From contig NZ_CP042467.1 in the NCBI RefSeq assembly GCF_007993755.1, forward strand, positions 3,806,001-3,870,000: a stretch of 64,000 bases of DNA, in the 5' to 3' direction. The position numbers were made by a program, and so were the translations under genes. The DNA is from Microvenator marinus (GTDB lineage Bacteria > Myxococcota_A > Bradymonadia > Bradymonadales > Bradymonadaceae). Positions 40,835-41,922 of this stretch are shown one piece after another; the first letter of the stretch is position 1; each line of letters opens with the position of its first letter. The notes under the pieces were generated by a model. That model was not told the DNA's origin, ran no database searches, and saw only the letters and a program-made list of their open reading frames with translations.

Positions 40835-40918
<84 letters not shown>

Positions 40919-40979: not shown

Positions 40980-41922
40980 TCAAGTAGATTTTTCTTGATC
41001 GTCGATCTTTGCTTTGAGTGCCGCCAAATCTGCCTTGAGTTGCTGGATTTCAGTTGAGTATCTCAATTCCGCCTCGACTCTAGCGTTTTCAGCCTCTTTC
41101 AACTGGTCCTTTAATCTTTCAGTGTATTCAAGGACATTGATCCCATCTACGTACATAAAATCGAACATCGTTTCCTCCAATCTCTGGCGTGTAAGTTTAT
41201 CGGTTTTGCTCCTCTTAATCAATGCGGTGGCTCGTTCCACATCTTCCAAGTTGTCGGGAACTCGTACACACATACGCATCCAATCAAACTCAGGCTCATC
41301 AGGTAGTCTCGTGCTTGAAACCATCACGATAGGGCCCATTTCCCAAGAACCGTTGATCCAGATTCCAGGATGTTGTGTAGGTTTGAAGATCTCGGGCTCT
41401 GCCAGCAATTTATCTGGCCGTCTTCGCGTCAGGATCACCATTGAAGGATGCAACACCTGGCCGCGTTCTTTCCTAAGTACTCGTCCACAGTGATTGTGAC
41501 TGGTTGACGGCGAGCAACTCGCCAGGAGGTCGAAGTCGCGCGACGTAGGCGATGCCAGAGCATCGTCGAGGAGCGAGGCGAAGAGATCGTTGTGAGGGGA
41601 CGGCGTCAATTGCTCAGAACCACTGTGGACGAGTACTAAGACTCAGATATCGATACGACGCGTATGCGATCTTCTCGCGACACGACGCGAAGTTCAGCGT
41701 CGATACTGAATCTGAAAAATGTTCAATAAGCACGTCGCGTCGCGTCAGATACGTGGCCAATGGCCCCCAATGGTGAACCGGGTCCGGCATATGCAGTATT
41801 GCATCAACCACTCGGTTCTTTCGAAACCGTTCGTGGGTTCTGAGCTTGCCACATAGAGGCAAGAATAACCTCAGGCACCAGGCCTCATGAGGATTTGGGA
41901 TGTTTGGACTTAGTCTTATCAT
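40980..41922 (-). pseudogene. Unknown gene split by a MITE
   Basis: Two frames on the minus strand form one gene. Part A (41922-41636) encodes 95 residues beginning MIRLSPNIPNPHEAWCLRLF; part B (41472-40980) continues RKERGQVLHPSMVILTRRRP to a coiled-coil end (EYTERLKDQLKEAENARVEA). Removing the MITE and one copy of its 5-bp duplication joins them in frame (780 bases, 259 residues), with no stop. In the present sequence part A runs into the element and stops at 41614; part B is open from a TTG at 41609 within it. The family resembles myxobacterial/cyanobacterial proteins with a 'VLIEHFS' and 'RRRPDKLL' pattern, possibly PD-(D/E)XK-nuclease related, but I cannot name it surely. Confidence 0.8.
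41478..41635. mobile_element. MITE-like element, 158 bp
   Basis: The left end TACTCGTCCACAGTG (41478-41492) and the right end CACTGTGGACGAGTA (41621-41635) are perfect 15-bp terminal inverted repeats, and similarity goes on imperfectly for about 20 bases more. The 5-bp target duplication CTAAG is exact on both sides (41473-41477 and 41636-41640). There is no transposase inside, so it is non-autonomous. Its removal restores a gene (see pseudogene). Confidence 0.88.

Follow-up and report, generated by a model that had tools for sequence, protein, structure and literature searches.

MITEs of bacteria are usually taken to be the deletion debris of single insertion sequences and to be private to one lineage. 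Several described systems are close to the element reported here. The terminal inverted repeats (TIRs) of RUP in the pneumococcus match those of IS630-Spn1; RUP has a TA target, was proposed to move in trans and is found inserted in other genes and insertion sequences (PMC2229807). The Correia/NEMIS and ERIC elements are long hairpins with TIRs, TA at the termini and a stable RNA fold, and the CcrM-associated CIR repeats of Caulobacter are MITE-like and expose a conserved motif in a terminal loop of their two-arm fold (PMC2229807). The MITEs of Ca. Thiomargarita nelsonii are hairpins with TATA ends that suggest descent from IS630, and some of them interrupt genes (PMC4853749).

In the window of 64,000 nucleotides from Microvenator marinus (the whole stretch of DNA that was analysed), a hairpin MITE splits a gene. 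The element is like RUP in its length class of about 100 to 160 bp, in TIRs that match those of an IS630-family element and probably in its TA target (PMC2229807), but its sequence and host phylum are different, and an apex common to different families is not described for RUP in that source. The long hairpin, the TIRs, the terminal TA and the stable fold are common to this element, Correia/NEMIS and ERIC, a likeness by description only. Unlike the host of the window MITE, the sources of Correia and ERIC are Neisseria and enterobacteria, respectively, and for neither does the account cited report an apex in common with other MITE families. The CIR motif is GANTC and is alphaproteobacterial, whereas the apex of the window element is a 20-nt stem found over many phyla. 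The MITEs of Ca. Thiomargarita nelsonii are likewise hairpins with an IS630 link and gene interruption, again compared by description only, and the account cited reports no apex motif for them.

The conserved apex, a candidate functional module, appears to be the part of real interest. An earlier note on this locus, made from the sequence alone, had recognised the element; what is new beyond it is that the apex is common to unrelated MITEs across phyla.

The window element and the gene it interrupts

The features of the locus are as follows.

40980 to 41477, minus strand: 3' part of the interrupted gene, with the stop at 40980
41473 to 41477, no strand: left flank CTAAG (target duplication, of which TA is the conserved part), from the sequence and the relatives' copies
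41478 to 41635, no strand: hairpin MITE of 158 bp with perfect 15-bp TIRs, a full-length hairpin and further copies
41478 to 41492, plus strand: left TIR TACTCGTCCACAGTG, from the sequence
41547 to 41570, plus strand: apex motif of the hairpin, A-GGCGATGC-CAGA-GCATCGTC-GAG, common to several MITE families and phyla
41621 to 41635, minus strand: right TIR TACTCGTCCACAGTG, from the sequence
41636 to 41640, no strand: right flank CTAAG, from the sequence
41641 to 41922, minus strand: 5' part of the interrupted gene, with the start codon at 41922 (self match 99%; 42 to 54% to the closest intact paralogues)

The 158-bp element with perfect 15-bp TIRs, as delimited earlier, was borne out by the sequence and by the hairpin fold. 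It is shorter than 500 bp, bears TIRs and has no transposase inside, as is typical of MITEs. Including CTAAG, the arms were 80% complementary across 40 nt. The whole element folded into a single long imperfect hairpin of -83.5 kcal/mol (z -7.7), and none of 200 shuffles was as stable. This value applies to the plus strand, compared with -63.4 kcal/mol for the minus strand. The exact 5-bp duplication proposed in the earlier note was present as CTAAG at both flanks, but judged by the relatives the duplicated bases are TA, usually within CTAG. Because the relatives duplicate TA, with the element reading G...C, the outer boundary is uncertain here by 1 to 3 bp, and the element extends either over 158 bp with CTAAG or over about 160 to 161 bp with TA/TAA.

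As had been predicted, the two frames on the minus strand became one when 163 bp were deleted; the joined open stretch comprises 262 residues, or 259 (780 bases including the stop) when counted from the first Met. The restored protein aligned over its full length with intact paralogues of 268 to 338 aa, without a net indel at the junction, which confirmed the interrupted ancestor gene. About a dozen or more relatives with 30 to 54% identity, most of them intact, are encoded in the same genome, and weak relatives also occur in other families. Pfam and NCBIfam contained no family matching the restored protein. Immediately downstream of the split gene, at window positions 40835 to 40918, the minus strand carries a tRNA gene.

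Further copies with different flanks, for which the earlier note had suggested a search, were present in the same genome and in relatives. In the 5.85-Mb genome of the host (G000), full copies were located at 2839496 (89% identity) and 2819053 (84%), giving three full copies including that of the window, and three pieces. The two additional full copies lack a clean repeat with TA duplication, unlike the window copy with its CTAAG. Genomes G002, G008, G014, G017 and G020, from the same family, also had related copies; this family includes Lujinxingia and belongs to the order Bradymonadales. The full ones were 72 to 74% identical, and most were flanked on both sides by TA, usually as CTAG. BLAST of the window element against plasmids and phages gave no match.

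The copy at 2839496 sits in another member of the paralogue family of the window gene (G000:C1 2839125-2840073). Near-identical paralogues (87 to 93%) without the MITE, at 3128300, 4382800 and 4445900, represent its empty site. The third full copy also separates two frames on the same, minus strand, one of which has repeated EKGIEKG motifs. With two copies in one paralogue family and the third between same-strand frames, all three full copies therefore appear to be intragenic. Two of the three lie within that single paralogue family. A native hairpin terminator or regulatory element instead of an insertion would fit the stable hairpin, but hardly the copies elsewhere with other flanks and with IS630 ends in common; it is contradicted by the uninterrupted paralogues of the second insertion site and by the reading frame that removal of the element restores here, and we consider this explanation barely credible.

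The link to IS630

A search for the TIR, followed by inspection of adjoining transposase ORFs, led to IS630 elements. The full-length transposon with shared TIR that the earlier note had proposed to look for was found in G002:C65:5-1707, an IS630-family element of 1.7 kb. It is complete (contig 65, positions 5 to 1707), with CTAG outside both ends; its transposase is in two pieces with one stop inside. This transposase scored 249 bits against the IS630 model NCBIfam NF033545 (cut-off 100), and its C-terminal part is a DDE_3 domain.

The genome of the window itself contained only one truncated IS630 relative (82% identity over 188 residues, 123 bits), which carries one TIR, CTAGTACACGACCACAGTG. 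The window TIR TACTCGTCCACAGTG is related to the TIR of this relic, CTAGTACACGACCACAGTGAT, from which it differs at 2 of 15 bases, and to the full IS630 in G002. An intact IS630 with exactly the window TIR was not found in this genome. Since the genome keeps only the truncated relic, we can only infer that the MITE was moved in trans by an IS630 transposase.

The MITE reading of the earlier note is upheld by the copies in the same genome, the relatives' copies, the full IS630 with the same ends, the empty site that paralogues provide for the second copy and the intact homologues of the interrupted gene. These copies, ends and empty site indicate that the MITE family is genuine and new and of a kind already known, namely IS630-driven hairpins like RUP. 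The suggestion that the family might be undescribed also held, as neither Rfam nor the literature searched contained a matching family. It is highly probable that the window element is a non-autonomous long-hairpin MITE of the IS630 family, moved by a transposase encoded elsewhere, with the apex as a separable module. An IS630 (DDE_3) transposase from elsewhere would have cut the MITE and pasted it into a TA-containing target; the target gene would be dispensable and multi-copy, and the insertion would have duplicated the target and broken the frame. In G010:C1, around position 382900 (L232), the right-hand end of an IS630 copy abuts an apex-bearing MITE, which is inserted there at a TTAA-like site.

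The apical motif

One part of the window element matched many more places than its ends did. This apex, GGCGATGCNNNAGCATCGTCGAG, turned up within the same family in the middle of hairpins whose TIRs differ, and its general form is A-GGCGATGC-NNNN-GCATCGTC-GAG. A scan of 84,980 species genomes (257 Gb) with the 20 fixed bases gave 68 matching loci, compared with about 0.5 exact matches expected by chance, or 0.7 when GC-rich composition was allowed for (own calculation). Among these loci are Rhodospirillales, Kiloniellaceae, Planctomycetota, Acidobacteriota, Myxococcota, Hydrogenimonas, Saprospiraceae, Thermoleophilaceae and Uhrbacteria. The loci inspected mostly have the apex at the top of a long hairpin. 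Arms and TIRs of such hairpins are unrelated, and the elements come from Bradymonadales, Alphaproteobacteria, Planctomycetota, Acidobacteriota, Bacteroidota, Campylobacterota, Actinobacteriota and CPR. The base 5' of the pattern was A in all 24 of 24 lineages.

The looser pattern ANNCGATGCNNNNGCATCGNNGA gave more than 100 matches in ten bradymonad genomes and six scattered matches in five other phylum genomes. A reversed, equally palindromic control had no match in 284 phylum genomes and again none in 16 more genomes. Among the latter, one Saprospiraceae genome (G295, 5.4 Mb) held 60 apex matches; as the 16 genomes were chosen for holding the motif, their counts give copy number and not prevalence. 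In the same Saprospiraceae MAG (L168, L278, L292), two MITE families with different TIRs have the same apex and flanks.

The pattern was absent from viral contigs, and BLAST of a Kiloniellaceae element against plasmids gave no match. Rfam had no match in the window element, even at a relaxed threshold, and none reaching the gathering score over elements at 18 other apex or MITE loci; for a Rhodospirillales element the relaxed search returned only sub-threshold matches, mostly to eukaryotic microRNA. A literature search for the apex motif or a shared MITE apex yielded nothing relevant. As the sequence on either side of the tip varies freely, the idea that the tip encodes protein was given up.

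The motif may be the relic of one ancestral hairpin element, the TIRs and arms of which were exchanged and the tip of which has no present function. Sharing of the core by MITEs with different TIRs in one genome (L278 and L292 in Saprospiraceae; the Bradymonad families) accords with this, since it indicates that modular exchange happens. Across phyla, however, the arms cannot be aligned, yet 20 to 23 tip bases are identical, whereas neutral relics would drift with their arms. We therefore regard a functionless founder relic as unlikely.

The folded apex has a stem of 8 bp, in which an R.K mismatch (mostly G.T) is conserved, and a 4-nt loop, followed by 3x2 and 2x2 internal loops. In bradymonads the free positions of the pattern are almost always GG and TC, so that the G.T mismatch is kept; in Saprospiraceae the mismatched pair is R.G. 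Arm pairing follows one fixed register, with one pair past the 3x2 loop and then the 2x2 loop. Beyond the tip, the pairs of the arms vary and covary: in 22 representative elements 25 double changes were counted, compared with 13.5 expected, and the covariation score of the arms exceeded that of 500 of 500 shuffles, a control that leaves relatedness in. Invariance of the tip in these 22 elements results from selection by the pattern. Some arm pairing is to be expected because the elements are palindromes, and the fixed register and the loops are the informative part.

The fixed stem sequence and free 4-nt loop also resemble an operator with a spacer, and the apex might thus be a double-stranded palindromic site (8-4-8) for a dimeric DNA-binding protein, the hairpin being incidental. 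This is quite doubtful, as the half-sites keep a mismatch at one position (G.T; in Saprospiraceae R.G), the apex tops a long hairpin in most elements examined and the flanking arms covary at fixed spacing; moreover, an operator fixed over so many phyla would not be expected. What is recognised in the apical module is probably its folded hairpin, as RNA or DNA.

Partner transposases and possible function of the apex

The TIR of planctomycete apex elements also occurs with the decayed relic of an IS5 transposase, two fragments of which, joined as a query, gave an E value of 1.5e-6 to NF033580, below the curated cut-off. GTCCGTCCGGAAA is the terminal sequence both of an alphaproteobacterial IS5 and of Rhodospirillales MITEs that carry the apex. 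Since the window family has IS630 ends and other apex elements have IS5-type ends, the apex does not seem to be a property of one transposase family; on the IS5 side the evidence is partial and consists of a degenerate relic and a 13-nt shared end. The apex was not found inside the IS630 of G002, the IS630 relic of the host genome or the planctomycete IS5 relic, which were inspected as autonomous elements. An IS630 locus examined as a candidate partner of the Lujinxingia MITEs did not have their TIR.

We propose that the apex module is carried by many MITE families with different TIRs, served by at least two transposase families (IS630 and IS5), across phyla. A widely conserved host factor or process would recognise the folded apex, as RNA or extruded ssDNA, and thereby favour survival or spread of the element. 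Reading of the folded apex by a host factor, aiding spread or survival, is the most likely explanation that we infer. The complete proposal, in which the 20-nt apex is a functional, transposase-independent module of MITEs of unrelated insertion sequences across phyla and is read by a host factor as folded RNA or ssDNA, seems to us as apt to be right as wrong. If true, an apex fixed in sequence over transposase families and phyla would show that there is a functional part common to these hairpins. Such a part would explain why hairpin MITEs stay palindromic, and the apex would be a simple search key for such hairpins in any genome.

Alternatively, the apex could act as a signal at the RNA level, read for instance by RNase III or a different nuclease, through which hosts tolerate the insert in their transcripts. 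The better folding of the plus strand is consistent with this, as is an excess of G.U over A.C among the arm mismatches (61:35, pooled p 0.01). By family, however, the excess was uneven (9:2, p 0.065), and planctomycete arms go the opposite way; copies in protein genes, moreover, still break the frame. In a MAG of Candidatus Uhrbacteria (L142:1-460, JAUYIW010000047.1), an apex hairpin element lies inside a 23S rRNA gene, like an intervening sequence, which also favours an RNA signal; if this gene copy is in use, transcription has to include the element, which is then either tolerated or excised. The case for RNA is weak, and a tolerance signal of this kind is possible but rather improbable.

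Besides simple hairpins, branched elements of about 270 to 300 nt, with the apex on one arm and the TIRs at the base, were found in Rhodospirillales, Kiloniellaceae and Hydrogenimonas, and the apex element of one acidobacterium is probably branched as well. The branched elements L120, L149, L150 and L174 have a second arm. In Rhodospirillales and Kiloniellaceae this arm has a different repeated tip, CTTGTGATGCNNNAGCATCACGGCG or a similar sequence, at its end, and the branched element of Hydrogenimonas has the first apex again as a reversed copy.
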